DNA from: Streptosporangiales bacterium
Lineage (GTDB): Bacteria; Actinomycetota; Actinomycetes; Streptosporangiales; Streptosporangiaceae
Assembly (NCBI GenBank): GCA_009380095.1
Contig: WHSL01000046.1
Coordinates: 1-32,288, forward strand
Reading direction: 5' to 3'
Length of the DNA: 32,288 nucleotides
This document shows positions 19,752 through 32,288 of this stretch, piece by piece. Every line of letters starts with the position of its first letter. The stretch's first letter is position 1. The notes under the pieces were generated by a model. It saw only the letters and a list, made by a program, of their open reading frames with translations. It did no database searches and was not told the DNA's origin. A program made the translations under genes and the position numbers.

Positions 19752-21181
19752 CCGACTACGAGAACACGGCCCCGCCGGGTGACGGCGAGGGCGGGCACGC
19801 CGAGGGCGGCCCGGCCTTCGACCCCCCGGCCCTGGCCGACGACCTGGACCTGACACCCGCCCCGGTGGTGGCGGTCGTCGGGCGCCCCAACGTGGGCAAG
19901 TCCACCCTGGTCAACCGCATCATCGGCCGCCGCGAGGCGGTCGTGGAGGACGTTCCGGGCGTCACCCGCGACCGGGTCGCGTACGACGCCAACTGGGGCG
20001 GCCGCCGGTTCACCGTGGTCGACACCGGCGGCTGGGAGCCGGCGGCCAGCGGCCTCGCCGGCGCGGTCGCCGACCAGGCCATGCTGGCCGCCGAGACCGC
20101 CGACGTGATCCTCTTCGTGGTGGACGCCAGGGTCGGCGCCACCGATGTCGACGACGCCGCGGTGGAGATCCTGCGCCGCACGAACAAGCCGGTCGTCCTC
20201 ATCGCGAACAAGGTCGACAACCAGCAGCAGGAGCTCGAGGCCTCCGCGCTGTGGAACCTCGGCATCGGCGAGCCGTACCCGGTGAGCGCGCTGCACGGGC
20301 GGGGGAGCGGCGACCTGCTCGACGCGATCCTCGCCGCGCTGCCGGGCGCGCCGCCGGAACAGCTCGGAACGCCTATCGGCCCGCGCCGCGTGGCCCTCCT
20401 CGGGCGGCCCAACGTCGGCAAGTCCAGCCTGCTCAACAAGCTCGCGGGGGAGGAGCGCGTGGTCGTCGACGCCGTCGCCGGCACCACCCGTGACCCGGTC
20501 GACGAGCTGATCGAGCTGGGCGGGCGCACCTGGCGGTTCGTCGACACCGCCGGCATCCGCCGCCGCGTGCACGGCCTCAAGGGCGCCGACTTCTACGCCA
20601 CCATGCGCACCACCGGCGCGCTGGAGCGCTCCGAGGTCGCGGTCGTGCTGCTCGACGTGAGCGAGCCGCTCGCCGAGCAGGACCTGCGGATCATCTCCAT
20701 GGTCGCCGAGTCGGGCCGCGCGCTCGTGCTCGCGTTCAATAAGTGGGACCTGCTCGACGACGAGCGGCGCTACTACCTGGAGCGCGAGATCGATCGCCAG
20801 CTCGCGCGCGTCCGCTGGGCCCCCCGGGTCAACATCTCCGCGCGGACCGGCCGGCACCTCGACCGTTTCGTCCCGGCGCTGGAGACGGCGCTGGAGTCGT
20901 GGGACACGCGGATCTCCACAGGTCGGCTCAACACCTGGCTCAACGAGGTCATCGCCGCCAAGCCCCCGCCCGTCCGCGGCGGCCGCCAGCCCAAGATCCT
21001 CTTCGCCACCCAGGCGAGCACCCGCCCGCCCCGGTTCATCCTCTTCACCACGGGCTTCCTCGAGGACGGCTACCGCCGCTTCCTCGAACGCCGCCTCCGC
21101 GAGGACTTCGGCTTCGAGGGCACGCCCATCCACATCACCATGCGGATCCGGGAAAAGAAGACCCGCCCCGCCCGCCGCTGA
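19748..21181 (+). CDS. der: Ribosome biogenesis GTPase Der (EngA)
   Basis: 477 residues from GTG 19748. Two tandem G domains: first [15 protein letters not shown] with DTGGWE and NKVD; second [15 protein letters not shown] with DTAGIR and NKWD. A C-terminal KH-like domain ([18 protein letters not shown] ... [14 protein letters not shown]) completes the family layout. It acts in 50S subunit maturation. A ~35-residue acidic N-terminal leader is typical of actinobacterial Der. It is the last gene of the core run before tRNA-Pro. Confidence 0.97.
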
Positions 21182-21330
21182 CGCCACAGCGCGCCTCGAT
21201 CAGCCCGCAGGGGGAGGGGCGCCGATCGGCCGAAACGCGGATGCTCCACACCCCGCACGATGCGCGAGGAACGCGGCGACTGCGATAAGGTGGGTCGCGC
21301 ACGCCGAGGAGAGCGATCTCCCCAGCGGGC

Positions 21331-21404
<74 letters not shown>

Positions 21405-21419
21405 CAGCGTAGACGCAGC

Positions 21420-21459
21420 TCAAGGGCCTGATCGTCCATAGGGATGATCAGGCCCTTGA
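21420..21459 (+). terminator. Hairpin after tRNA-Pro
   Basis: Perfect 14-bp stem: TCAAGGGCCTGATC (21420-21433) with GATCAGGCCCTTGA (21446-21459) and a 12-nt loop, followed by TCGTTT. Placed 15 nt after the tRNA, it is a likely terminator. Confidence 0.7.
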
Positions 21460-21791
21460 TCGTTTGACCGCACCATGACCGCAAGACGGGACGTCAGCTG
21501 GTGACATAGAACAACCCTGATTGATAGGTCAGCACGCGGGCGGGGCGCCAAGTTTGCGGTTTTGAACATCCCAGGCAACCAGGGGTCGGAGCCCGGCCCC
21601 GGATACCCAGCGACGTCTCGGCGCCCAGCGCCTATGCCGACCTTGCAGCCAGTGGCCTTGCGACGCCCACTTGGCCGTCTCGCACCGGAACAGGCAGCCC
21701 ACCCAGGGAGGGATGGAGGAGGCTGTGTCCGCTGCGGACGTGCCGACATACCCTCCCGGCCGTGACGGCCCGGCCTTTCAGTGGCCACGAT
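21460..21791. other. Non-coding stretch, no gene recognised
   Basis: Both strands were read; open frames here have no recognisable domain or consistent codon pattern. Base composition is less GC-skewed than the core genes. It looks like decayed insert DNA at the edge of the accessory block. Confidence 0.5.
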
Positions 21792-21936
21792 GTCGCCTAT
21801 CTGACGTTCACCGGCTCGGGATGGGGTGTCTCCCGACGACGGCATCACGCTCGACGCGGCCGCATTACCGGGAAGCATCCAGGCCCTGCGCGACCGCAGT
21901 TACACCTTCACCACACTCGACGCCCTGCTCTCCTGA
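21792..21936 (+). pseudogene. Relic of a polysaccharide deacetylase (NodB-like)
   Basis: One frame gives VAYLTFTGSGWGV, like the NodB start VAYLTFDDGP. A neighbouring frame then gives DDGITLDAAALPGSIQALRDR and SYTFTTLDALLS before a stop, like the family's C-terminal 'LP.I...L...GY.F.TLD.LL'. Most of the ~200-residue domain is missing and the two pieces are out of frame. Confidence 0.45.
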
Positions 21937-22036
21937 CGCGATGACCGGAGGTCCCTGTGGCCGGGGACGTCGGCGTCCCCTCTGGGGTGGGACCCGTATC
22001 AGGGTGAAGGCGTCCCCTCATGAAGGGAGGTTGGTC

Positions 22037-22440
22037 ATGAGGATCGTTGTCGGAGTCGACCGGTCGGCCGAGAGCCGGTCGGCCATGATGTGAGCAACGC
22101 CGAGGAGGCGTTGCGGCACGGCCATGGGGTTGAGCTGGTGCATGCCGACTTCGTGTGGCACCGCGGCGGCACGTTGAGCCAGGCGGCCAGAGCGCAGATC
22201 CAGGCCGATGAGCGGGCGATGCTGGAGGCCGCCGCCGAGGCGGTGGGCAAGACCGGGGTCCCGGTGACGACCTACTCCGCCCCGGGTGAGCCGGCGGATG
22301 TGCTGCTGGAGTGCGCCCGAGGTGCGGCGATGCTGGTTCATCCGAGGACGACCGACCTACAGCGGGGCATCAGGTCAACGAACTCACGTACCGGGCGCCG
22401 TGCCCGGACCGCGACCACCACGGCCTGTCAGGTGGGGCCT
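22037..22440 (+). pseudogene. Decayed universal stress protein (UspA family)
   Basis: A good start (GGGAGG before ATG 22037) gives MRIVVGVDRSAESRSAMM and then a TGA at 22091. In the next frame the protein resumes: EEALRHGHGVELVHADFVWH ... AAAEAVGKTGVPVTTYSAPGEPADVLLECARGAAMLV. The usual G-rich ATP loop is missing, and a third frame gives HQVNELTYRAPCP, resembling the UspA end. At least two frame breaks plus a lost nucleotide-binding loop mean it is not functional. GGGGAC/GTCCCC inverted hexamers about 70 nt upstream may be remains of its promoter region. Confidence 0.7.
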
Positions 22441-22457
22441 CTTCGAACAGATGCGAC

Positions 22458-22619
22458 CTAGTGTCCTGTGGACGGGCGGGGACTGGAAACGGAGCAACCC
22501 GGCCACGGTCACTGAGGCGGCGCAACCGATCGGGAAACCGACGGCCATGAAGACCCCAGGACCTACCGCCGCGAACCGCCACCGCGCCAGTCCCCGACCC
22601 TACAGGCGGAGAACACTAG
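22458..22619. mobile_element. MITE-like 162-bp element with CTAG ends
   Basis: Outer ends CTAGTGT (22458-22464) and ACACTAG (22613-22619) are inverted. Inner GGGGACTGG (22478-22486) and CCAGTCCCC (22587-22595) are a second inverted pair. CTAG at both ends could also be a target duplication. No open frame inside. The right end contains the stop codon of the leftward Nudix gene (22616-22618), so insertion may have reset that gene's C-terminus. Confidence 0.45.
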
Positions 22620-23080
22620 CCGATGTGGGGGGTGGCGTTGTGGGTGGCGTGGTGGATGCGAAGGTGGACGGTGGGGTGGATGTCGTAGGTATGCAGGTTC
22701 TCAAGGGGGATGTATTCGAGCTCGGTGGACTCGTGGGATAGGCGGAGGTGGCCGCCGGTGGTGCGGGTGTGGAAGACGACGGTGAATTCTTGGCGGACTT
22801 CGCCGTCGTCGTAGGCGAGGCGGTGGTCGGGGTCGGTGTAGATGCCGGCGATCGTGGTGGGTTCGACGTGGAGGCCGGTTTCTTCGAGGACTTCGCGTCG
22901 TAGGCAGTCGGCGATGGTCTCGCCGATGTGCATCTTTCCGCCGGGTAGTGACCATCGTCCGGAGTCGGCGCGGCGTTGCAGGAGGATGGCGCCGGACTCG
23001 TCGCGGATGATGGCGGCGGCGCAGGGCGGCATGGTGTTGGCGGGCGGGGCGTTGGGGTCGCGGTAGTGGTCGCGCCGCAC
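22616..23080 (-). CDS. Nudix hydrolase, linked to XRE regulator
   Basis: 154 residues from GTG 23080, two bases after the stop of the XRE gene and preceded by AGGAAGG, so the pair is an operon. The Nudix box is perfect: G-x5-E-x7-REVLEETGL beginning at PGGKMHIGE. AAAIIRDESGAILLQRR and GRWSLPGG in front are typical of MutT/NTP-pyrophosphatase-like members. It probably hydrolyses a nucleoside di- or triphosphate derivative. Given the divergent TS-like/NDP-kinase genes, the natural guess is a modified pyrimidine nucleotide, but that is inference. The His/Thr-rich C-terminal end (TVHLRIHHATHNATPHIG) overlaps a MITE-like repeat. Confidence 0.9.
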   Translation of the reverse strand: MRRDHYRDPNAPPANTMPPCAAAIIRDESGAILLQRRADSGRWSLPGGKMHIGETIADCLRREVLEETGLHVEPTTIAGIYTDPDHRLAYDDGEVRQEFTVVFHTRTTGGHLRLSHESTELEYIPLENLHTYDIHPTVHLRIHHATHNATPHIG

Positions 23081-23082
23081 GG

Positions 23083-23817
23083 TTAGTCGCCTTCCTGTGG
23101 GTGGCAGGTGGCCCAGACGTCTTCGAACTCCAGGGCGAAGGTTTCGAAGAGCCCGTGCGGGCTGTGTTTGCGGAGGTGGAGGGCTGGGTGTTCGTAGCCG
23201 CGGCGGCGGATCATATACGGGGTGACGATCATTTGGTCGTCGGCGCGGACGATGGTGTTGTAGAGGTGGCTGCGGTGCAGCCCGAGCTGGACGGTGGGCA
23301 GCCGCCAGATGTGTTGTCCGCGTCCGAGGGCGTCTTTGACGCGACCGCGGAAGGTTCCGCCGAGCTGCTCGAGGGCATCTCGTTCGTCGACATGGTCGCA
23401 GTCGGGGTCGATCAGCGCGACACGTACCTGGACGTGGTGTTCGGTGATGCTGGACGGCAGGCGGGGGTCGCATTCCCAGAGCCAGTGCCCGGTGTAGGCG
23501 AGTACGTCGATGCGTTCGCGGGCGCCGAGCAGGAGCGCCGCCCAAAGTTCCGTGGGGACGTTGGAGCGTCGGCCCCACGCCGCTGCGATCTCCACCGCGG
23601 CCGACGCGGTCGGGGCGAGGTCGGGGCGGGCCTGCGGCCACAGGTCCTGCTCTGTCGCCGAGAGGTAGGTGGCGGCGGCCATCCGGTTGCGGCGGTGGGG
23701 GAGACGTCCGGCCATCCAGCGGCTGACCGTCTTGGCGTCCACGCCGCATGACCTGCCCAGCTCGGCCGCGCTGACACCAGCGGCGATCATCGCCGTACGC
23801 AGCCGCTCGTTCGCCAT
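23083..23817 (-). CDS. XRE-type HTH regulator with large C-terminal sensor-like domain
   Basis: 244 residues from ATG 23817. An N-terminal helix-turn-helix (RLRTAMIAAGVSAAELGRSC, then VDAKTVSRWMAGRLPHRRN) covers residues ~5-45. The C-terminal ~170 residues (WAALLLGARERIDVLAYTGHWLWE ... LYNTIVRADDQMIVTPYMI ... GLFETFALEFEDVW) resemble the DUF5919-type module of actinobacterial XRE proteins, with a phospholipase-D-like strand/helix pattern. It is likely a ligand-responsive repressor controlling itself, the Nudix gene and the divergent four-gene operon; direct repeats at 23821-23893 are candidate operators. The ligand is unknown. Confidence 0.8.
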   Translation of the reverse strand: MANERLRTAMIAAGVSAAELGRSCGVDAKTVSRWMAGRLPHRRNRMAAATYLSATEQDLWPQARPDLAPTASAAVEIAAAWGRRSNVPTELWAALLLGARERIDVLAYTGHWLWECDPRLPSSITEHHVQVRVALIDPDCDHVDERDALEQLGGTFRGRVKDALGRGQHIWRLPTVQLGLHRSHLYNTIVRADDQMIVTPYMIRRRGYEHPALHLRKHSPHGLFETFALEFEDVWATCHPQEGD

Positions 23818-23820
23818 GGT

Positions 23821-23893
23821 GACGTCCTACCAAAGCCGGGACGTCCCGTGAAGCGTCCCGCAGGACGTTTCCGCGTCCCGTAGTGCGGCGGGA
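23821..23893. promoter_or_regulatory. Repeat-rich divergent control region (candidate XRE operators)
   Basis: CGTCCCG occurs at 23842-23848, 23854-23860 and 23874-23880 and, partly inverted, as GCGGGAC at 23887-23893. A perfect palindrome GGGACGTCCC lies at 23838-23847 and GACGTC at 23821-23826. All are in the 157-nt gap between the divergent XRE gene and the TS-like gene, where a shared operator is expected. Confidence 0.55.
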
Positions 23894-23974
23894 CTGTAGG
23901 CGACGTCAGCGTCGCCCGGGATTCCGCCCGCTGGACATCTCCGGCAGGTGGTGACCTGCGCAGGGAGGTCGTTC

Positions 23975-24988
23975 ATGCTCACGCCGGAGGCGTTCCCCGA
24001 CTTCACCTCCGCCTATGTCGCCGTACTGCGGCATGTGTACGCCTGCTACGAACACCAGTCTGCCCCGCGGGGCAACGCGTCGCGGGAGTGCCTGGGGGTC
24101 ACCTTTCGGTTGACGGATCCGCGTGAGCGACAGCTGTGGCTGCGTACGCGGCGGCAGAAGCTGCCGTTCCATATCGCCGAGACCCTCTGGTACCTGGCCG
24201 CGCGCGACGACCTGGAGATGATCGGGCACTATGCGCCGGGGCTGGCCAAGCACTCCGTCGACGGGCAGCGGCTGACGGGGACCGCGTACGGGCCGAAGCT
24301 CTTCGGGCCCGGCGCGGACGGGGTGAGCCAGTGGGGGAGGGTGATCGCCCTGCTGGCGAGTGAGGAAGGCACCAAGCGGGCCGTGCTGACGATGTTCCGG
24401 CCGGAGGAACTGGTGGAGTCGTGGGCCAACCCGGACGTCTCCTGCACCCTCGGCCTGCAGTTTGCCCTGCGCGACGGCGTGCTGCACGCCGCCGCCTTCA
24501 TGCGCGGCAACGACGCGTGGCGGGGCCTGGCGGGAGATGTTTTCGCGTTCACCGTGATGCAGGAGATCGCGGCCGCCGAGCTCGGGGCACGACTGGGGCA
24601 CTACACGCATCACGTGACTTCGATGCACATCAACGACGCCGACCTCGGGGGCGTCGTACGGCTCCTCGATGAGGTCGTCGAGCCGCCTCCTACACTGCCG
24701 GCGGCGCGGGTGCTGGTGATGCCGTCGAGGCCATGGCCCCAGATCCGGGCCGTTCTCCGCGAGGAGGAGGCGCTGCGGACCGGCCGCGTCTCGCATACGC
24801 CGCACAGCATCAATCAGCTCGGGCTGGATCCGTACTGGCAGCAGTGGCTGCTTAACCTCCAGGCCTACCAGGAGATCCGCACCGCGGATCGGGTCCACGT
24901 CGCTACCTGGGCTGCCCTGTCCCCGCAATACCGCTGGGCGCTCGCGGCGCGGTGGCCAGGCCAGGTGCCGGCCGGGGACGTGCTGTGA
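23975..24988 (+). CDS. Thymidylate synthase-fold enzyme, predicted (d)CMP hydroxymethylase-like
   Basis: 337 residues from ATG 23975 (GGAGG at 23964-23968). The ThyA fold is recognisable: Glu69 in IAETLWYL, Tyr105 in GTAYGPK, QWGRVIALL, catalytic Cys157 in DVSCTLGLQF, Arg177 and Asp180 in MRGND, His218 in SMHIN. Spacings from Cys to Arg, Asp and His equal those of E. coli ThyA (C146, R166, D169, H207). The uracil-selecting Asn177 of ThyA falls on Asp188 here (GLAGD). That swap is the known mark of T4 dCMP hydroxymethylase and of CMP hydroxymethylases such as MilA. ThyA Tyr209 is Asn220. A ~75-residue C-terminal extension follows. I predict 5-hydroxymethylation (or methylation) of a cytidylate with CH2-folate. 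First gene of a four-gene overlapping operon. A deviant dUMP enzyme is the alternative. Confidence 0.72.
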   Translation: MLTPEAFPDFTSAYVAVLRHVYACYEHQSAPRGNASRECLGVTFRLTDPRERQLWLRTRRQKLPFHIAETLWYLAARDDLEMIGHYAPGLAKHSVDGQRLTGTAYGPKLFGPGADGVSQWGRVIALLASEEGTKRAVLTMFRPEELVESWANPDVSCTLGLQFALRDGVLHAAAFMRGNDAWRGLAGDVFAFTVMQEIAAAELGARLGHYTHHVTSMHINDADLGGVVRLLDEVVEPPPTLPAARVLVMPSRPWPQIRAVLREEEALRTGRVSHTPHSINQLGLDPYWQQWLLNLQAYQEIRTADRVHVATWAALSPQYRWALAARWPGQVPAGDVL

Positions 24989-25542
24989 CCGAGGTGGATT
25001 GGTCGCGCTGGACGGTGATCTTGTGCAAGCCGGACTGCGCCGAGCGCGGACTCATCGAGGTGGTCCTGGAACGGATCGCCGAACACGTCACCCTCACCAC
25101 TAGGCGTGAGCTGCACGCGAGTGAGCAACAGATCCTGGCGCACTACGCCGACATGGTCGCAATGGACGCCTTCTTTCCCTTTGACACCGCTGCTGCTCTG
25201 CGCCGCCGCTACGTGGGCGCCTTGGTCACTGTGGCCCTCGGCTACGGCCCAGATGCCGCCGCCCGCGTACGAGCGCAGCTTGGGCACTACAACCCGGCGA
25301 TGGCACCGCTCGGCAGCATCCGGGGCGACTTCGGCACCGACAGCCACCTCCGGGCGCGGGCCGAGGACAGGTTCATCGACAACCTGATCCACACCTCCGA
25401 TGACCCGCCCGGTGCCGAACGCGAGTTCGCGATCTGGTTCGGGCCTGCCGCACAGCATCTGCTCACACCGCCCTCCTCCGATCCCTCAGGAGCCGAAGAT
25501 GCCACGAACGCTTCCGCTGATCACCGAGCAGGAACGCCGTGA
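24985..25542 (+). CDS. Nucleoside-diphosphate kinase homologue
   Basis: 185 residues from GTG 24985, overlapping the TS-like stop as GTGA. NDP kinase residues are kept: Lys15 in CKPD, Arg113 in GSIRGDFG, and the phosphohistidine His136 in NLIHTSDD; AEREFAIWF ends the fold. It is longer than usual (~140-150) through an insert around residues 60-95 and a ~30-residue tail that reads into the next gene. Sequence is clearly divergent from housekeeping Ndk, which presumably exists elsewhere. In context it would convert the diphosphate of the TS-like enzyme's product to the triphosphate. Its 3' end overlaps the radical SAM gene by 44 nt. Confidence 0.85.
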   Translation: MTEVDWSRWTVILCKPDCAERGLIEVVLERIAEHVTLTTRRELHASEQQILAHYADMVAMDAFFPFDTAAALRRRYVGALVTVALGYGPDAAARVRAQLGHYNPAMAPLGSIRGDFGTDSHLRARAEDRFIDNLIHTSDDPPGAEREFAIWFGPAAQHLLTPPSSDPSGAEDATNASADHRAGTP

Positions 25543-26665
25543 CCTCACTCCCGAAGCACTCGATGTGGTCGACTACCGCAAGTCCGGTCTAAGCCTCAAC
25601 CACGTGATCGGCTGCCCCCTGGACTGCGCCTACTGCGTACGCCACACCTTCGGCCTCTGGCCTCAGCGCCAACCGCGCGCCCTGATGACCGACCAAGAAG
25701 CTGTCGAACGGCTGGTGGGCAGCCCGTGGTTCCAGCCGCAGGTCACCCCAATACAGGTCTTCAACCGGGCCACCGACCCGTTCCTGCCCCAGGTACGGCC
25801 TCACACCTTCGCCGTCCTCCACGACCTCGACGCGCGCCGTCTCACCAACCATGTCCTGCTGATCACCCGGTTCCGGGTCACCGAGGCCGACTGCGTTGCG
25901 CTCAACGAGCTCCAGCACCTGCGGGTGACGCTACTCATCACCTACTCGGGCATCGACGACCCCCGCATCGAACCGTTCCCGTCAGCCGTTGCCGCCGAGA
26001 CCCTCGCCCGTACGGCCGCCGTACGGCCGCGCCGCTACCGCGTGATCCTCTACTGGCGCCCCCTGGTACCTGGACTCAACGACACTGCCGAGCACATCCG
26101 CCGCGCGGCCGCCGTCGGCGCGCAAGCCGACGGCACGGCCTTTACCGGCCTCTTCTTCAAGGACCAGATCGCCGACTACTACCAGGCCAACGGCCTACCC
26201 GAGCCCTACGTCGACACCGCGCGCCGCAAGATCCTGCCGTGCGACCTGGAGCAGCGGATCATCAACGGCTTCACCCGGCACCGCGGCGGCGTTCTCTTCC
26301 GGAAGACCTCGTGCGCCGTGTCCTTCGCACACGGACGCCCGGACTACAACGGCCACTACGGCATCCGCGAACTCTGCGACATCTGCCCGGTCTCCCAACT
26401 CGACCTGTGTGCAGCCGGCCACCGCACACCCTCTGCCGAGGAGATCGAGGCCGTGGCCGCCCGCGCACCCGGCGGGGGAGACCTACGGGTGGCCGAGCTG
26501 ACACGGCGTGCCGCCCGCGTCGAGGGCAACACGGCCGAGCAGCTCAGGTACTACGTTCAGCACACACTCGCCTTCCAGATCCACGACGCGGCACGACCCC
26601 ACCACCACGGCCGGCACGGCCGCGCCGACATCGGCTGGAACCAAGGAGACCCACTGGATGACTGA
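25499..26665 (+). CDS. Radical SAM protein with extra C-terminal Fe-S-type cysteines
   Basis: 388 residues from ATG 25499 (CAGGAG seven bases upstream). The CX3CX2C cluster motif is Cys39, Cys43, Cys46 (IGCPLDCAYCVRH). The barrel resembles the spore-photoproduct-lyase/Rv2578c-like branch (FNRATDPFLP, HVLLITRFRVTEADC, LLITYSGIDDPRIEPFP, WRPLVPGLND). Four more cysteines at 272, 293, 296 and 304 (TSCAV ... LCDICPVSQLDLC) suggest an auxiliary cluster or zinc site. It could repair or modify a pyrimidine nucleotide or DNA base, given relatives such as SP lyase; the substrate is not readable. Third gene of the operon; overlaps the exonuclease gene by 8 nt. Confidence 0.85.
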   Translation: MPRTLPLITEQERRDLTPEALDVVDYRKSGLSLNHVIGCPLDCAYCVRHTFGLWPQRQPRALMTDQEAVERLVGSPWFQPQVTPIQVFNRATDPFLPQVRPHTFAVLHDLDARRLTNHVLLITRFRVTEADCVALNELQHLRVTLLITYSGIDDPRIEPFPSAVAAETLARTAAVRPRRYRVILYWRPLVPGLNDTAEHIRRAAAVGAQADGTAFTGLFFKDQIADYYQANGLPEPYVDTARRKILPCDLEQRIINGFTRHRGGVLFRKTSCAVSFAHGRPDYNGHYGIRELCDICPVSQLDLCAAGHRTPSAEEIEAVAARAPGGGDLRVAELTRRAARVEGNTAEQLRYYVQHTLAFQIHDAARPHHHGRHGRADIGWNQGDPLDD

Positions 26666-27197
26666 GCCACGCGGCCGGTACGCAGCAGTCGACGTCGAAG
26701 GCAACGGACAGCAGCCCCCCGACCTCGTCGAAGTCGCTGTCGTCCCTATCGACAACGGTCACATCGGCGAGCCCCGTGCGTGGCTGCTGCGCCCCGCCCG
26801 GCCGGTCACCCCGATCGCCCGCCGCATCCACGGACTCAGCACCGAACAACTCGCCGACGCGCCGACCATCGCCGAAGTTGCCGACGAGATCAGGACCGCC
26901 ACAGCCGGACGAACCATCGTCGCCCACGCCGCGCACGTCGACGTGACAGCACTCAAGCGACACCTACCCGGCTGGCACGCCGCCCGAGTAGAAGACACCC
27001 TCCGCCTCGCCCGCCAAACCCTGCCCCAACGCCCGTCCTACAGCCTCGACGCACTCATCGCCGAGCTCGGCCTCGATCATCACATTCCCCTCGACCTACG
27101 GCGACACCGAGCCGCGTACGACGCCCTCATCACTGCACGACTATTCATCGCGTTGACGAACACAGACATGCGGCAGGTCCAGGACGGGCTGTTCTGA
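26658..27197 (+). CDS. DEDDh 3'-5' exonuclease (DnaQ-like)
   Basis: 179 residues from ATG 26658, overlapping the radical SAM stop by 8 nt. Exo I: Asp12 and Glu14 (AVDVEGNG); Exo II: Asp95 in VAHAAHVD; Exo III: His150 and Asp155 (HRAAYD). All four metal ligands and the general base are present. IARRIHGLSTEQLADAP is the usual DnaQ linker. It is a stand-alone domain with no polymerase or helicase attached, so it may trim DNA or short oligonucleotides, possibly ones bearing modified bases made or recognised by the upstream genes. Last gene of the operon. Confidence 0.88.
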   Translation: MTEPRGRYAAVDVEGNGQQPPDLVEVAVVPIDNGHIGEPRAWLLRPARPVTPIARRIHGLSTEQLADAPTIAEVADEIRTATAGRTIVAHAAHVDVTALKRHLPGWHAARVEDTLRLARQTLPQRPSYSLDALIAELGLDHHIPLDLRRHRAAYDALITARLFIALTNTDMRQVQDGLF

Positions 27198-27204
27198 GCT
27201 TCAC

Positions 27205-27550
27205 GGACCTGTAGGTGCACGCGGACAATCGCGACAGCCCGGCGCAGGGCATCTCGTGTGGTGAGCACGTCCCCCGATGAGCGCGGAGGGTGGCCAGGTG
27301 CGGGCAGGCGCGCACAACACCTCGAGCTGGCGGTGTTCGTCAGCGTCGAGATCTGCGGGGTTGCACAGGAACCAGCCGGTGGCCTGCTGGACCGTCGGTG
27401 GTAGCTGTGGAGCTGGCGGTGGGGCAGGAAGGCCGGTCCGCCGGGGCCGGACGTAATGGCGGACCACGGTGTTTGCGCCGCGGGGCGAGGCATAGGCGAC
27501 GTGGTTCGGCGTTGCCGCCGCGCTTGCGGCCGTCGTAGGTGCCCATGCAC
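27205..27550 (-). pseudogene. C-terminal relic of an ISL3-family transposase
   Basis: Leftward, the pieces RGANTVVRHYVRPRRTG, TVQQATGWFLCNPADLDADE and HRQLEVL match the C-terminal 'VTGWL..PD.L..D...L' block of ISL3 transposases. The sequence then jumps frames twice: RACPHLATLRAH, and GDVLTTRDALRRAVAIVRVHL (usual 'FA.ML..R....L..W...V'). The DDE core is absent. It separates the four-gene operon from the following repeats. Confidence 0.6.
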
Positions 27551-27565
27551 TAGCCTCGGGCTTTC

Positions 27566-27670
27566 GTGCGCCCAGCAGAGCAGGAGGTGAAGGTGCGTGA
27601 GTAGCTGATCTTTCTGTTCGTAAGCTCGTCGTCGCTTGCCGGTGGAAGTCCGGTCCGTGGACCACCCCGG
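27566..27670 (+). other. Possible group II intron 5'-end fragment
   Basis: GTGCGCCCAGCAGAGCAGG begins right after the left inverted end and resembles the conserved GUGCGCCCAG start of bacterial group II introns. A later GCCGGTGGAAGTCCGGTCC resembles a domain I stem found in such introns. No reverse transcriptase frame and no domain V are present, so at most a 5' fragment remains. Confidence 0.3.
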
Positions 27671-27709
27671 GTTCGTTGGAGGCCCTGGTACCTGGAAGGG
27701 TGAGGGGCT

Positions 27710-27829
27710 ATGGCACCCCCGAGGAAGTATTCGCCTGAGCTGCGAGAGCGTGCGGTTCGGATGGTCTTTGAGCTTCGAGCCCGGTCACCCGGACCGTCTC
27801 CAGCAACAACACCGCACCGGCCTGGCTGA
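27710..27829 (+). pseudogene. Truncated IS3-family transposase OrfA
   Basis: ATG 27710 gives MAPPRKYSPELRERAVRMVF, the usual start of IS3 OrfA with its first helix, then loses similarity at about 27776 and stops at 27829. Only ~22 of ~95 family residues remain. Confidence 0.65.
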
Positions 27830-28049
27830 TAATCCCCGAACCATCCGGCGACACCACGACCCTGGCATACCGACCTGTAATCTTCACGTGGAAGGCGCCT
27901 TCCAGCGCGGGTGTTCCGAGACTTCAGCAATCCCGATTCTCCCAGCTCAAAGGCACCTTTCGCGTTCAAACAGCCAACCCGCACCCACCACCCGGTGAAA
28001 GCCCGAGGCTAGAGACCTTCCACCCCTGGCCAGTGGATCGTGCGGCGAG

Positions 28050-28072
28050 TGTCTCGATATTCATTCGAGACA
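28050..28072. promoter_or_regulatory. Orphan 23-bp palindrome
   Basis: TGTCTCGA (28050-28057) and TCGAGACA (28065-28072) are perfect 8-bp arms around TATTCAT. Size and symmetry fit a TetR/MarR-family operator, yet no intact gene starts beside it; the nearest downstream intact gene begins at 28480. The rest of 28013-28180 shows nothing else. Confidence 0.45.
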
Positions 28073-28180
28073 ACGAACTCGCCTGGCTCACCCGGATACT
28101 CCCGCCCGAGCTGAGCTGACCGGGCAACCGCATTCGCCGCAGCTATCGGCGACCGCCGCCCGAGTCTCCCCGGCGGGGCG

Positions 28181-28357
28181 TGGCTCTTCGTGCACCTCCC
28201 GCTACTCATCGCCCTCGCGGTGGCGTCGGTGGGAATCGAACACGCGGTGAGTGCGGACGCGGCGCATGTGCTCTCGGCACCCGAGCGCTGGATGCTGCTG
28301 GGGCCCGTCGCGGCGTACCTCCCCTTCGAGGCGGTCATCTGCTTCACCACGAAGTGA
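28181..28357 (+). pseudogene. C-terminal fragment resembling low-temperature-requirement protein A
   Basis: One frame reads WLFVHLPLLIALAVASVGIEHAV, then AERWMLLGPVAAYLP-like sequence and a TGA at 28357: two hydrophobic helices like the last pair in LtrA-family membrane proteins ('YLHLPL..GI....VGVE.A'). No start codon or upstream helices are present. Confidence 0.4.
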
Positions 28358-28423
28358 TCGGTGGCGGTGGACCCGGCGTACGCCCCATGCGGGTCTGACT
28401 CGTCCTGGGTCTCGCGTGGAGCC

Positions 28424-28445
28424 CTTGAATACCTGAGTATTTGAG
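28424..28445. promoter_or_regulatory. AT-rich imperfect palindrome upstream of the acyl-CoA dehydrogenase gene
   Basis: CTTGAATAC (28424-28432) and GTATTTGAG (28437-28445) match at 7 of 9 mirrored positions with a perfect AATAC/GTATT core and 4-nt spacer. It lies 35 nt before the start codon, an expected repressor position. Confidence 0.4.
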
Positions 28446-28479
28446 GTTGCGGACGCACGGTCCTTGAGGAGGCGCTGGC

Positions 28480-29760
28480 ATGGCTTGGGATTTCCAGACC
28501 GAACCGGAGTTTCAGGAGAAGCTGGACTGGATCCAGCGGTTCTGCGAGGAGAAGGTCGAGCCGCTGCACCACGTGTTCCCCCACGCCGCCCGGTTGCCGG
28601 ATCCGGCGGTGAAGGCCTATGTGCGGGAGTTGCAGCAGGAGGTCAAGGACCAGGGGCTGTGGGCACTGTTCCTCGACGAGGAGCTCGGCGGCCCCGGCCT
28701 CGGACAGCTGAAGCTGGCCCTGGTCAACGAGATACTGGGCCGGTATCCGGCCGCCCCCCAGCTGTTCGGCGCCGCCGCGCCCGACACCGGGAACATGGAG
28801 ATGCTCGCCGCCTACGGCACCGAGGAGCAGAAGAAGCGCTGGCTCGGACCGCTGCTGAACCAGGAGATGTTCTCGGCGTACTCGATGACCGAGCCCCAGG
28901 GAGGCTCGGACCCCAACCTGTTCAAGACCCACGCCGTCCGAGACGGCGACGACTGGGTGATCAACGGCGAGAAGTGGTTCACCTCAGCCGGACGGGTGGC
29001 CGACATCCTGTTCGTGATGTGCAAGAACGGCATGTTCGTGGTGCCGCGCGAAACGCCGGGCGTCGAGATCATGCCGGAGCCGCGCAACCACAACCACATC
29101 GTCTACACCGACGTCCGGGTGCCCCACGACCATCTCCTCGGCCCCGAGGACGGCGCCAAGGTGCTGGCTCAGCGCCGGCTGGGAGGCGGTCGCATCCACC
29201 ACGCGATGCGCACGATCGCCCAGTGCAGGCTGGCGCTGGACATGATGTGCGAGCGGGCGCTGTCGCGCGAGTCGCACGGAGCGGTCATCGCCGAGCACCA
29301 GATGGTGCAGGAGAAGATCGCCGAGGCGTACGTGAAGCTCAAGATGCTGCGGCTCTATGTACTGGAGACCGCGTGGAAGATCGACCAGACCTCGACGCAG
29401 GAGGCTCGGACCGACATAGCCGGGGTGAAGTTCACCATGGCCCGGGTGCTGCGCGAGATCTCCTTCGACGCGCTCCACATCCACGGCTCCCTCGGCACCA
29501 CCGACCTCACGCCGCTGCACGACATGTACGCCGCCGCGCCGACGATGGGCCTCGCCGACGGCGCCGACGAGGTGCACAAGGCCACCGTCGCCCGTCGCGT
29601 GCTCCGGGGCTACCGCCCCCACGAGGGCTACTTCCCGCGCGAGTACCGTCCCTACAAACGGGCGCAGGCGTGGGAGAAGATGCGGCCGGTCCTCGCCGAC
29701 CGGCCGGAGCTCGCCAAAGCCGCGGAGAACTGGAAGCAGTACTTCGCCACCCGCTCATAG
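28480..29760 (+). CDS. Acyl-CoA dehydrogenase
   Basis: 426-residue FAD flavoenzyme that introduces an alpha-beta double bond into an acyl-CoA. ATG 28480 follows AGGAGG (28467-28472). Domains in order: N-terminal helical (MAWDFQTEPEFQEKLDWIQRF), beta domain with the FAD/substrate segments AYSMTEPQGGSDPNL and WVINGEKWFTSAG, and C-terminal helical domain with IHGSLGTTDLTPLHDMY and GLADGADEVHKATVARRVL. The last motif and the length place it with the ACAD10/11-like FadE group that favours long or branched acyl chains. Stand-alone gene with a candidate operator at 28424; the luciferase-like relic follows on the other strand. Confidence 0.93.
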   Translation: MAWDFQTEPEFQEKLDWIQRFCEEKVEPLHHVFPHAARLPDPAVKAYVRELQQEVKDQGLWALFLDEELGGPGLGQLKLALVNEILGRYPAAPQLFGAAAPDTGNMEMLAAYGTEEQKKRWLGPLLNQEMFSAYSMTEPQGGSDPNLFKTHAVRDGDDWVINGEKWFTSAGRVADILFVMCKNGMFVVPRETPGVEIMPEPRNHNHIVYTDVRVPHDHLLGPEDGAKVLAQRRLGGGRIHHAMRTIAQCRLALDMMCERALSRESHGAVIAEHQMVQEKIAEAYVKLKMLRLYVLETAWKIDQTSTQEARTDIAGVKFTMARVLREISFDALHIHGSLGTTDLTPLHDMYAAAPTMGLADGADEVHKATVARRVLRGYRPHEGYFPREYRPYKRAQAWEKMRPVLADRPELAKAAENWKQYFATRS

Positions 29761-29779
29761 GGGCGGCTGTCAGGTCTGC

Positions 29780-30537
29780 TCAGAGGCCGAGGCGGCGGCT
29801 TTGACGGGCGATGAAGGCGAGCACCTCGTCGGCAGGGCGATCGGGGAGACCCCACATCACATCGGTGATCCCCGCGTCGTCCCGTGCCGCGAGGTTCTCG
29901 GGAGTCGGTTTCTCCATGGCCAGCAGGTGTACCTGCGGCCGCCCGGTGCGTCCCGCGTCGGCCCATGCCTTGCGGAGCCGGTCGCATTTGGCCGGGATAT
30001 CCCGCTCGGTCGGGGTGGTCATCCAGCCGTCGGCGGAGCGCGCGATCCAGGCGAACGTCTTCGGCCCGCCGCCGGCGCCGATGATCAGTGGATGTGCCGT
30101 TGAGCCGGCTTCGGGTACGCCCATGAGGGGCCGAACGACACGAACTCCCCGTCGTAGGCGGCCTCCTCCCGGGTCCACAACGCCCGCATCGCCTCGACGT
30201 ACTCGCGGAGCACGGTGCGCCGGCGGGCGGCCGGAACCTTGTGGTCGTCGAGCTCATCGGTGTTCCAGCCGAAGCCGGCGCCGAGGGTGACGCGGCCACC
30301 CGAGAGGTGGTCCAGGTCGCGATCGTCTTGGCCAACGTGATCGGGTCGGACTCGACGGGCAGGGCGACCGCGGTGGCGAGCCTGATGCGGGAAGTGATCT
30401 GCGCCGCGGTGGCCAGGGCGACCCACGGGTCGAGGGTACGGAGATAACGGTCATCGGGCAGGGTCTCGTCACCCCCGTGCCGCATCGACGGGCGTGATCC
30501 CACGATCGCTGGTGAACAACACAATCCCGTGCCGCAT
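29780..30537 (-). pseudogene. Decayed LLM-class (F420-dependent type) oxidoreductase
   Basis: Leftward from ATG 30537 (MRHGIVLFTSDRGITPVDAAR). About 30-40 family residues are then missing before GGDETLPDDRYLRTLDPWVALATAAQ. A one-base loss near 30314 shifts frame (expected TIATLDHLSGGRVTLGAGFGWN), and another shift near 30095 separates AYPKPAQ from HPLIIGAGGGPKTFAWIARSADGW. The remaining C-terminus reads to a stop at 29780. The original enzyme was a ~280-residue TIM-barrel luciferase-like monooxygenase. Three separate lesions make this a real pseudogene rather than one sequencing slip. Confidence 0.8.
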
Positions 30538-30703
30538 CGCACTCGCCACCTCGGTCCTCGATGCGGTTCATCAAGCAGCCTGGTCGAGCACTGTCTCCGC
30601 CAGCGTTCGCGCCACACGTCCCGGGTGCGCGACGGTCGAGGCCGCGCCGGTCGGGAAGAACTGATACATCGATCGACAGCAGTGTGAATCGTTGGGTGGA
30701 GGA

Positions 30704-31081
30704 GTGACGGCGAAGCGGGGCGACACCGATGCGGGGCCCGCCATGGGAAGGCTGCCGGCCACCCGGATCGGGCTGCTCGGCGGGCTGACCGGGATCCTGT
30801 GCTGTGTGGGCCCGGCCGTGCTGGCCTTGTTCGGGGTCGTCGGCGCCGGCACGGCGTTCACCTGGGCGACGCGGCTGTACGACGGCTACGCGTGGTGGCT
30901 CCGGCTGGCCGGGCTCGTCGTCATCGCGGTGCTGGTCTGGGTCTCGCTGCGGCGCCGCAACGCCTGCTCCATCGCCGGGCTCAAGCGGGTGCGGTGGCGG
31001 CTGCTGGGCGTACTGGCCGTGGCCGTGGTCACCTACGGCGTGCTCTACGGCGTGACGACCTGGCTGGGGTCGTTCGCCTGA
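30704..31081 (+). CDS. Small MerT-like membrane protein
   Basis: ~125 residues with three predicted helices. The first, GLLGGLTGILCCVGPAVLALFGV, carries a vicinal Cys33-Cys34 pair followed by VGP, as in the mercuric transporter MerT (CCVGP). A later Cys lies in RRRNACSIAGL, and a third helix (LLGVLAVAVVTYGVLYGVTTWLG) ends the protein. The start is uncertain: GTG 30704 abuts GGAGGA; TTG 30692 or ATG 30743 are alternatives. It could move a thiophilic metal or metalloid. Convergent with the radical SAM/methyltransferase gene, which also has many cysteine pairs. Confidence 0.6.
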   Translation: MTAKRGDTDAGPAMGRLPATRIGLLGGLTGILCCVGPAVLALFGVVGAGTAFTWATRLYDGYAWWLRLAGLVVIAVLVWVSLRRRNACSIAGLKRVRWRLLGVLAVAVVTYGVLYGVTTWLGSFA

Positions 31082-31107
31082 ACCCCAGCCCGGCCCTCTT
31101 CCCCCGA

Positions 31108-32288
31108 TCAGGTGGTGCGGGTGGCGATGAGGAGGCAGTAGCCCGCGATCCCGTCCGCCGCGGCCTTGGCGGCCGCGCGGGCGAGGTCGAGCCCGCGGCC
31201 GACGTCGATGATGGTGTTGCCGGCCATGCGGAGCAGCCGCAGCCGTGCCTGGATCTGCTCGATCATTTCGGTCAGCGCCTCGTCGTGCTGCTCGATGGTG
31301 GTGGTCGTCAGCCCGGCGTCGGCGAGGATCTGCGTGTACTCCTCGGCCGGGCGGGCGTCGGCCAGGCAGGCCACCCAGCCGGCGAGGTCGTCCAGTTCGG
31401 GTGGGAGTGGGCCGTTGACGGTGATGTCGGTGATCCCGGCCCGGCCGCCGTGCCGCAGCACGCGTGCGAACCCCGCTGCCGCGACCGGTTTGTTGGTGAA
31501 CGTGCAGAAGGCGCATTCGTAGATCACGGCGTCGAAGGTGGCGTCGCCGAACGGCAGCGTCTCGGCGTCACCGACGTGGAAGGTGACCTGGCCGGCGAGC
31601 CGGGCGCCGGCGGCGACGCCCTCCGCCGTGGCCACGTTGTCCGCGGACAGGTCGACCCCGGTGAAGACCTCCTCCCGGTAGCCGACCGAGTTGTACGCGC
31701 AGAAGGGGATCAGCCGGCCATCGGGGGTGATCTCCTCGACGCAGCACTTCATGAGCTGGCGGACGTTGAGGGTGTACGGGTCCTGGAAGTCCTGGATCAC
31801 GATCATGGACGCCTTGTCGGTGACGTTCTTGACCGCCGCGGGCAGGTCGATCCCGCAGGTGACGCATTCCAGCTGCTCGTCGGTCTCCGGGCGGCCCATG
31901 AACGCCGAGGCCGACCACAGCTTCTCCAGCGCCTCCCGGATCGCGTAGTCGGGGACCACCCGGTCGCTCACGTAGTCGCGATGGTCCTCCACCTTGACCA
32001 GCCGCGGGATCGGCACCACGCCGTCCTTGTCGACCAGCACGTAGGTGATGGACCGGCAGGCCGGGAAGCAGCACGGCACGGGGAAGAAGTCGCTCGCCCG
32101 CAGCCATTCCGGTGCCTGCGCCGCGAGGGCGTGGATGATGTCGGAGTTGGTCAGCCGGGTCAGCGGATCGAACTCGATGTGCCGCCCCGAATGCGTGACC
32201 GGCTGGAACGACACCGACCGGACCGCCGGATGCCGGACACCGAACTGGACGATGTCGCCGAGCTCGTGTTCGTTGAGCCCCTTCTCCA
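31108..32288 (-). CDS. Radical SAM protein C-terminus fused to a truncated SAM-methyltransferase domain (partial)
   Basis: The gene enters from the right edge; an internal GTG at 32214 is not the true start because the frame and similarity continue upstream (EKGLNEHELGDIVQFGVRHPAV). The first part (VSFQPVTHSGRH, DPLTRLTNSDIIHAL, FFPVPCCFPACRSITYVL, ECVTCGI, PFCAYNSVGYREEV) matches the C-terminal half of radical SAM methylases of the hydroxymethylpterin (MJ0619-like) type. The reading then passes without a break into a class I methyltransferase like ArsM-type proteins (TGVDLSADNVATAEG, GDAETLPFGDATFDAVIYECAFCTF, FARVLRHGGRAGITDI). The expected motif I (D-x-G-x-G-x-G) is not seen at the junction, so the methyltransferase part may be an in-frame deletion product. 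The N-terminal CX3CX2C lies outside the window. Confidence 0.7.
   Translation of the reverse strand, partial: EKGLNEHELGDIVQFGVRHPAVRSVSFQPVTHSGRHIEFDPLTRLTNSDIIHALAAQAPEWLRASDFFPVPCCFPACRSITYVLVDKDGVVPIPRLVKVEDHRDYVSDRVVPDYAIREALEKLWSASAFMGRPETDEQLECVTCGIDLPAAVKNVTDKASMIVIQDFQDPYTLNVRQLMKCCVEEITPDGRLIPFCAYNSVGYREEVFTGVDLSADNVATAEGVAAGARLAGQVTFHVGDAETLPFGDATFDAVIYECAFCTFTNKPVAAAGFARVLRHGGRAGITDITVNGPLPPELDDLAGWVACLADARPAEEYTQILADAGLTTTTIEQHDEALTEMIEQIQARLRLLRMAGNTIIDVGRGLDLARAAAKAAADGIAGYCLLIATRTT

Follow-up and report, generated by a model that had tools for sequence, protein, structure and literature searches.

A widespread and apparently undescribed radical SAM–exonuclease gene system and its cytidylate hydroxymethylase-like version in a Streptosporangiales bacterium

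What would a divergent set of genes for nucleotide enzymes, a regulator and an exonuclease accomplish together in a Streptosporangiales bacterium, and do all of them belong to one system? The locus lies on contig WHSL01000046.1 of assembly GCA_009380095.1, in a stretch of 32,288 nucleotides hereafter called the window. Open reading frames and Pfam matches bear out the six genes and families that an earlier note on this DNA had placed here. The leftward arm (minus strand) consists of a Nudix hydrolase gene with a GTG start (22616..23080; Pfam NUDIX, 3e-20) and, 2 nt away, an XRE-type regulator gene (23083..23817; HTH_31, 1.5e-6) whose product has a weak DUF5919-like match at its C-terminus (3e-4, below cut-off). 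The rightward arm (plus strand) encodes a MilA-type cytidylate 5-hydroxymethylase-like enzyme of the thymidylate synthase (TS) fold (23975..24988, with a longer alternative start at 23948; Thymidylat_synt, 4.8e-12), an NDK-like, divergent nucleoside diphosphate kinase (24985..25542; NDK, 1.4e-19), the core radical SAM enzyme with its CxxxCxxC motif (25499..26665) and a DEDDh 3'-5' exonuclease resembling ExoX/DnaQ (26658..27197; RNase_T, 2e-20). The overlaps of 4, 44 and 8 nt along these four genes are as first reported. Between the divergent arms, a cluster at 23837..23894 holds five of the 37 GTCCCG half-sites of the whole window, the first two together forming the palindrome GGGACGTCCC; none of 300 simulated windows reached five sites in 64 nt, and the pattern makes the cluster a likely operator. 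A tRNA-Pro gene is present at 21331-21405. A tRNA-anchored island was nevertheless rejected, no attachment-like repeat of at least 16 nt being found within 21000-32288.

The conserved unit at this locus is the four rightward genes rather than all six. Gene content, order and co-conservation were computed across related loci: the order TS-NDK-radical SAM-exonuclease is kept in 23 of the 24 that were fetched, the remaining one stopping at a contig edge. The radical SAM gene is present in 23/23 genomes with this TS type, against 41/345 overall in the order and 0/32 of those with a weaker TS match only (hypergeometric P = 5e-25 for co-occurrence with the TS type, a value that ignores shared ancestry). 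The recurrence of the four genes together is beyond chance. The XRE query, for its part, matched no locus except the window's own, and of 20 TS-type loci two gave a match to the Nudix profile, a clear one in a single case; at most TS-type loci a Nudix or HD match is absent. Because the XRE and Nudix genes are not conserved with the operon, a unit of six genes was ruled out. The earlier note had put all six families forward as one candidate system and had named a lack of co-conservation in other genomes as its refutation. Since the four rightward genes are co-conserved, this refutation fails for those four, and the six-gene view falls for the regulator and the Nudix hydrolase.

The wider system is centred on the radical SAM enzyme and the exonuclease, with TS+NDK as an exchangeable addition. 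An exonuclease gene lies within 5 kb of the radical SAM gene and on the same strand in 116/117 rows spanning several phyla (111/112 distinct rows), with a gap below 300 nt in 111/112. This set of 117 excludes L132, where the radical SAM match falls in two pieces and is probably frameshifted, and L146, which meets a contig end; a radical SAM relative without exonuclease occurs at L092. TS+NDK and/or a thymidylate-kinase-like kinase accompany the core in 110/117 rows, and neither does in 7/117. TS+NDK appear in three separate radical SAM lineages, of which the window represents one, and were swapped as a pair at two loci; their distribution on the radical SAM tree fits gain or loss alike. The TS-like enzyme is thus not central to this wider system. 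The core is found on plasmids and chromosomes. On a Nostoc plasmid the radical SAM gene is followed by a kinase gene with no exonuclease annotated, and in Roseibium algicola an IS30 transposase comes after it, neither exonuclease nor kinase being annotated there.

The closest solved relative of the TS-like protein is MilA, a CMP 5-hydroxymethylase (5jnh, E 2e-79, residues 6-334 of 337). Equivalents of MilA E68, K133, C155, D186 and H216 are kept in 41/41 rows; two pairs among these, L125/L128 and L126/L143, with identical radical SAM proteins, probably each represent a single locus. According to the roles described in PMC5175136, Cys155, Glu68 and His216 are catalytic, Asp186 recognizes cytosine, Lys133 and Ala176 are tied to ribose preference, and Tyr218 contacts the 2'-OH. 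The near full-length homology and the five equivalents are shared with the cytidylate 5-hydroxymethylases of mildiomycin and bacimethrin, MilA and BcmA. The present family differs from MilA in having G (25 of 41 rows, including the window) or A (16) at the A176 position and N (32), G (7) or A (2) at Y218, which is not kept, and from both enzymes in its operon partners, NDK, radical SAM enzyme and exonuclease here, an N-glycosidase there. The hydroxymethylase signature initially read in the TS-fold enzyme is real, as the kinship with MilA shows. An ordinary dUMP methylase, the outcome that would have contradicted that reading, is improbable on the residue check, which gives a cytosine-type D rather than the uracil-type residue in 41/41 rows, and an ordinary thymidylate synthase (ThyA) was rejected on the same position. 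That the TS-like gene replaces a missing ThyX/ThyA is a doubtful reading that misfits the residues; the source genome has no ThyX match and a second TS-like ORF with only a weak match, but the assembly is 97% complete and ThyX is also absent from 3/20 relatives searched.

The radical SAM enzyme scores only 15.4 bits against Pfam Radical_SAM (cut-off 29.5), its profile retrieved only three unrelated matches among solved chains (E 0.97-0.99), the core has no NCBIfam match over cut-off, and five of these proteins found no match in PADLOC. A 57-row alignment contains seven invariant cysteines, C39, C43 and C46 of the CxxxCxxC motif and four in the C-terminal part, the latter being a candidate auxiliary Fe-S site. 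Radical SAM structures are the top structural matches of the predicted model (pLDDT 94). Spore photoproduct lyase is its best VIA-align match (Z 15.4, rmsd 3.4, 251 aligned, 10% identity) and ranks third by Foldseek, whereas viperin-type chains reach Z of about 12 to 13 by VIA-align. The fold of the lyase is shared over residues 1-269, but the present enzyme carries about 120 extra residues with the four invariant cysteines and sits in an operon of nucleotide enzymes. A phage origin was rejected, no match to this radical SAM enzyme being found in 50,697 phage records; nine IMG/VR contigs (putative viral) carry relatives. One radical SAM gene, searched at the nucleotide level only, had no match in E. 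coli genomes.

The exonuclease matches ExoX (4fzx, 6e-15), and among 112 rows its third acidic residue is D 90 times and E 22 times. Together with the Nudix protein it matches generic, little informative PADLOC models (DEDDh 7.5e-29, PDC-S48 2.4e-21, PDC-S07 2.4e-14), the Nudix match being the candidate model PDC-S07. Judged by its family, the Nudix hydrolase is a possible accessory for the house-cleaning of a nucleoside triphosphate. The catalytic His of the NDK-like protein is kept in 42/42 rows, and the source genome encodes another NDK, with a stronger match, separate from the operon. In other versions of the system the alternative partner is a Tmk-like kinase by Pfam, matching only the candidate model PDC-M51B in PADLOC (9.5e-12), or an AAA_28 kinase, whose model matches thymidylate kinase, NadR and the albomycin kinase AbmG (8j5f, Foldseek rank 16, E 5e-6), one AAA_28 protein having no PDB match by sequence. 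DEDD exonucleases of actinomycete genomic islands have been tied to phage defence, namely the deoxydinucleotide nucleases or diDNases (PMC11706625). These are NrnC-like, unlike the ExoX/DnaQ-like enzyme here, and 'radical SAM' is counted 0 times in that paper.

The surroundings of the core include defence genes in some lineages. Named anti-phage genes lie within about 9 kb of it in four of seven alphaproteobacterial plasmid lineages, the other three having none, and in 0/6 control stretches twice as long from six of those plasmids, the defence words having been chosen by eye after the focal regions were viewed. Few PADLOC matches were specific among 109 ORFs that flank 24 loci of the Tmk type in Actinomycetota (of 46, L038-L083) and were scanned without a control: a Shedu, a type I restriction protein and an SspA/DndA match, the last perhaps a cysteine desulfurase with a housekeeping role, besides weaker MADS-type matches in six. 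These ORFs are what was kept of 138 chosen, mostly nearest regulators and aldo/keto reductases having been dropped by eye, and some of them, called mechanically, may not be genes.

Our preferred, tentative reading, held at somewhat less than even odds, takes the locus for one version of a mobile system that would make a nucleotide analogue and thereby hamper the synthesis of phage nucleic acid; its core is a radical SAM enzyme like spore photoproduct lyase together with a DEDDh exonuclease. The reactions, step order, regulation and anti-phage role that we infer would run as follows. CMP (or dCMP) would be hydroxymethylated by the TS-like enzyme, and the product phosphorylated up to the triphosphate by a host NMP kinase together with the NDK-like enzyme; at some stage the radical SAM enzyme would alter the nucleotide, giving the harmful analogue. 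The exonuclease would strip this analogue from the 3' ends of host DNA or RNA, the Nudix enzyme would degrade surplus triphosphate, and the XRE protein would govern both arms through the GTCCCG cluster. Suggestive in its favour are the MilA-type residues, the conserved operon, the radical SAM–exonuclease core, the swapping of TS+NDK as a pair, the fact that other core partners are also nucleotide kinases (Tmk-like, AAA_28), the phosphohydrolases of some versions (Nudix in the window, HD on alphaproteobacterial plasmids, a weakly MazG-like protein in one Streptomyces plasmid version) and the anti-phage neighbours of plasmid lineages relative to controls. Precedents suggest the same by analogy: viperin pairs with CMPK2, a kinase bearing a TMK domain (PMC9132166), and thmA-C combine a radical SAM enzyme, a kinase and a triphosphatase giving resistance (PMC12691670). 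Counted against it are the few specific defence matches in actinomycete flanks, the lack of a PADLOC match for five of the radical SAM proteins, a model whose similarity to a DNA repair lyase exceeds that to viperin, the absence of Tyr218 and the rarity of Nudix or HD matches at TS-type loci. A more specific proposal, which we hold to be doubtful, is a new immunity type in which the lyase-like enzyme with its extra, cluster-binding C-terminal part would convert a C5-substituted pyrimidine nucleotide (thymidylate in Tmk-type versions, 5-hydroxymethylcytidylate in TS+NDK versions) into an antiviral one, while the exonuclease would clean host nucleic acid.

The strongest rival, unlikely but worth weighing, is a small nucleoside-antibiotic cluster whose product, like 4'-thiothymidine, would be released against competing bacteria, with the exonuclease, Nudix or HD protein conferring self-resistance. 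The make-up of thmA-C, where an AbmG-like nucleoside kinase joins a radical SAM enzyme and a resistance-giving triphosphatase (PMC12691670), suits it, as do the AbmG match of the AAA_28 model and the place of MilA in mildiomycin biosynthesis. NDK and an exonuclease fit intracellular action at least equally, however; defence genes adjoin the core on several rhizobial plasmids; and no transporter was found in the ten recurring neighbour clusters scanned with Pfam (of 40 listed), though MFS_1 matched 3/109 flanking ORFs.

Sets of a TS-like enzyme and kinases are typical of phages that hypermodify their DNA. A base modification of DNA or RNA, in which a 5-substituted cytosine nucleotide would be polymerized and then altered by the radical SAM enzyme with the exonuclease as editor, would also accord with a best VIA-align match that acts on DNA. 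It is improbable, in view of the 50,697 phage records without a match to the radical SAM enzyme and of the Lys at MilA 133 and the small residue at 176, which, with the roles given in PMC5175136, favour ribonucleotides. Equally hard to credit is nucleotide or DNA repair or salvage, in which the exonuclease would excise a damaged nucleotide, the radical SAM enzyme repair it and the kinases recharge it: the resemblance to spore photoproduct lyase (Z 15.4) and an exonuclease adjoining a kinase fit, but the occurrence is patchy (41/345 genomes in the order) with plasmid-borne copies, and repair offers no obvious role for a hydroxymethylase.

To return to the nucleotide-analogue reading, the literature matches listed contain analogues only and no described system with this combination, in line with the novelty first claimed. 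By gene content, the thmA-C cluster for 4'-thiothymidine and AbmG/AbmM of albomycin likewise join a radical SAM enzyme and a nucleoside kinase (with or without a triphosphatase); the present system differs from them in its exonuclease core and its TS+NDK addition. Viperin (SAND) and CMPK2 form a comparable pair of a radical SAM enzyme and a nucleotide kinase of Tmk type, with defence genes nearby in some hosts, whereas the present radical SAM enzyme shows no sequence relation to solved ones, carries the extra C-terminal cysteines and has an exonuclease in its core. The best reading, by analogy, is of a system like viperin/CMPK2 in logic which homology does not place as viperin. Apparently, then, this is a widespread and undescribed gene system, and a recurrent nucleotide-modifying set with a core radical SAM enzyme unmatched in PADLOC and at NCBIfam cut-offs offers a concrete, testable lead. 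It could lead to a novel nucleotide active against viruses or bacteria, to a radical SAM reaction on nucleotides that is likewise novel, and to an example of self-protection by a dedicated exonuclease. If the reading is true, the logic of viperin and CMPK2, a radical enzyme with a dedicated nucleotide supply, would have arisen more than once.

The region is organised in two divergent arms, with genes for a Nudix hydrolase (22616-23080) and an XRE regulator (23083-23817) on the leftward, minus strand. The rightward, plus-strand arm encodes a TS-like protein (23975-24988, with GGGAGG before its ATG and GTG 23948 as an alternative start), an NDK-like protein (24985-25542), a radical SAM (rSAM) enzyme (25499-26665) and a DEDDh exonuclease (26658-27197). 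The six genes, their divergent arms and the overlaps of 4, 44 and 8 nt at the three successive junctions of the rightward arm, all proposed in the earlier note, were confirmed. Between the arms, five GTCCCG half-sites are packed into 58 nt (23837-23894), out of 37 in the window. None of 300 sequences simulated with the first-order composition of the window held five such sites per 64 nt; their mean GTCCCG count was 66, above the 37 observed, and the longer form CGTCCCG is not enriched window-wide (22 versus 28 in shuffles). For GTCCCG, clustering alone is the unusual feature. The cluster is consistent with an operator common to both arms and recognised by the XRE protein, a likely role that we regard as putative. 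A tRNA-Pro (GGG) gene lies directly upstream of the region (21331-21405), and no attachment-type repeat was found downstream of it with the settings used.

Conservation within the order separates the two arms. Among 345 genomes, the TS-like protein gave 25 strong matches (E < 1e-80) including the window. All 24 other loci, retrieved with their flanks, carry an NDK gene 3' of the TS gene, and 23 of them display the complete TS-NDK-rSAM-exonuclease order (one, L132, with its rSAM match split in two pieces), the remaining locus running off its contig. In the comparison of weaker places, which covered four loci (37-43% identity) and the broken TS piece L152 and left about 30 further weaker places outside it, no NDK, rSAM or exonuclease match was found. 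The genome search for co-occurrence suggested in the earlier note recovered an rSAM gene (E up to 1e-60) in 23/23 genomes with a strong TS match versus 41/345 overall, and in 0/32 genomes with only a weaker one (P = 5e-25 for co-occurrence, a statistic that ignores shared ancestry). The co-conservation predicted for six genes thus holds for TS, NDK, rSAM and exonuclease and fails for the leftward arm: the XRE query matched no locus beyond the window's own, and the Nudix profile matched two of 20 TS-type loci, one of them clearly.

The rSAM family was then used as bait in a collection of 84,980 species genomes, where 272 relatives were confirmed. The best 80 of these 272, together with relatives from plasmids, nine IMG/VR contigs and the order-level search, gave a table of 117 loci (112 distinct). 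An exonuclease gene lies within 5 kb on the same strand in 116/117 rows, separated from the rSAM gene by less than 300 nt in 111 of the 112 distinct ones; L092, a relative on a long branch, is devoid of it. The partners vary: TS+NDK in 43 of the 117 rows, a Tmk-like kinase in 41 (one member matching Pfam Thymidylate_kin at 9e-28), an AAA_28 kinase in 42 and none of these in seven. An aldo/keto reductase is a frequent neighbour, and an HD protein occurs at some alphaproteobacterial plasmid loci. The relatives come mainly from Actinomycetota, and also from Alphaproteobacteria, Cyanobacteria and metagenome bins labelled Nitrospirales, Acidobacteriota and Obscuribacterales. The nine IMG/VR contigs (L118-L126), viral by database label, carry the system, several as a TS-NDK-rSAM-exonuclease-kinase-reductase set.

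TS+NDK occurs at three places on the rSAM tree, a quick tree in which the window's branch is long: a clade of 22 rows (20 distinct), a second clade with the Streptomyces plasmids among its members, and the window itself, at the base of a 49-row Tmk-type clade (SH-aLRT 99). The TS and NDK trees broadly agree, and two loci (L106, L111) combine an rSAM gene of the second clade with TS+NDK of the first-clade kind. These placements suggest that TS and NDK are exchanged together, as a pair added to an rSAM and exonuclease core, with gain or loss possible in each case.

Seven cysteines of the rSAM enzyme are invariant in 57 rows: C39, C43 and C46, and an additional set (C272, C293, C296, C304) that suggests a candidate auxiliary Fe-S cluster. 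With its predicted model (pLDDT 94), VIA-align ranked spore photoproduct lyase best (Z 15.4, rmsd 3.4, 251 aligned residues) in a near tie with PFL-activating enzyme (14.8), Foldseek had PFL-activating enzyme at rank 1 and spore photoproduct lyase at rank 3, and viperin ranked lower in both. For a model of the AAA_28 kinase of L123 (pLDDT 94.6), Foldseek put thymidylate kinases on top and the albomycin kinase AbmG at rank 16, and VIA-align gave NadR (16.9) effectively tied with thymidylate kinases (about 16). Given these matches and the Pfam match of the Tmk-like partner, the two alternative kinases seem to share a fold class and to act on nucleotides or nucleosides.

The hydroxymethylase signature attributed to the TS-fold enzyme was borne out. 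Its nearest solved relative is the CMP 5-hydroxymethylase MilA, whose E68, K133, C155, D186 and H216 (roles from PMC5175136) have equivalents in 41/41 rows. The A176 position holds G in 25 rows and A in 16, and the Y218 position holds N, G or A, not Tyr. Since the MilA residues are kept, a cytosine nucleotide is the likely substrate, whose sugar may be ribose or deoxyribose. The catalytic His of the NDK-like protein is present in 42/42 rows, and the same genome has a much stronger NDK match at a separate place. The exonuclease, closest among solved structures to ExoX, PolC and DnaQ, retains D12 (110), E14 (111), H150 (112) and D155 (111) across 112 rows, with Asp as the third acid in 90 rows and Glu in 22. 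Elsewhere in the window's genome, a second, weak TS-like ORF (L158, contig C329, 5592-5951) adjoins a HAD-like gene, and no ThyX was detected (assembly 97% complete). A MilA-like TS (37% identity) is also found on Priestia megaterium plasmid pPmC-129-1 (L037, 7527-11075), between a nucleoside 2-deoxyribosyltransferase on one side and a SAM methyltransferase and a HAD hydrolase on the other; judging from the bcm genes, this locus may be a plasmid-borne bacimethrin-type cluster.

The neighbourhood of the core was surveyed on alphaproteobacterial plasmids from the annotation of 11 of 16 full-length-match records, representing seven lineages; the other five are more Labrenzia/Roseibium and Rhizobium. 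In four of the seven, the core has named anti-phage genes no more than about 9 kb away. These are Shedu and ABC-3C in Rhizobium and Sinorhizobium chiapasense; for Agrobacterium vitis, a TIR protein and a product annotated 'anti-phage deoxyguanosine triphosphatase'; and, on S. meliloti M162 psymA (L166), a DncV-like synthase, ThiF and patatin just upstream of the core with one small gene between, a set that may be read as a CBASS operon whose effector is patatin. In Mesorhizobium, Gluconobacter and Labrenzia/Roseibium, the genes near the core are of toxin-antitoxin, helicase, methylase or mobile-element type and were left out of the anti-phage count. The defence words, picked by eye post hoc, were applied to loci and controls alike, and occurred in 0/6 control stretches of 38 kb (210 features), taken from six of these plasmids, one stretch being largely conjugation genes. 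For 109 ORFs flanking 24 Tmk-type loci in Actinomycetota, PADLOC gave, at E up to 1e-10, four matches to mad2 and single matches to Shedu, a type I restriction protein, SspA/DndA (this one may be a housekeeping cysteine desulfurase), mad3, mad8 and a GlgB-type model; because these counts have no control set, they show no enrichment. Among the Pfam matches of these ORFs, the regulators DUF6879 and DUF5753 recur. Seven Streptomyces plasmid loci have regulators and plasmid genes, and one of them also encodes a protein with weak similarity to MazG (PF03819 at 18.1 bits, under the cut-off).

The claim that this combination is undescribed stands among the literature matches listed, subscription papers and preprints being outside their scope: no published account of the gene set was found there. 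PADLOC had no match for five rSAM proteins of the family and for the kinases gave no more than weak or candidate-model matches, such as PDC-M51B (9.5e-12) for the Tmk-like kinase of an rSAM operon (L061, 12530-13174); the window's rSAM protein has no NCBIfam match over cut-off. In the simplest reading across versions, the rSAM enzyme would alter a pyrimidine nucleotide supplied by TS+NDK or by a Tmk-type kinase, and the exonuclease, likewise a phosphohydrolase in some versions, would curb damage to the cell. A carbon at C5 is common to thymidylate and hydroxymethyl-CMP, and the thymine lesion on which spore photoproduct lyase acts is linked via its methyl group. Chemistry at C5 is therefore a plausible, if speculative, shared theme.

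Two known sets appear close in logic. Viperin (products treated in PMC10732462 and PMC9642334) has as partner CMPK2, which carries a C-terminal TMK domain and supplies CTP (PMC9132166). The thmA-C genes make 4'-thiothymidine and encode an rSAM enzyme, a kinase resembling AbmG and a triphosphatase for self-resistance (PMC12691670). An exonuclease, part of the system here, is absent from both sets in the sources consulted. The recurring gene system itself has good support, and the chemistry and purpose proposed for it are putative. Its logic resembles that of viperin and nucleoside-analogue pathways, and it may be a new immune system.
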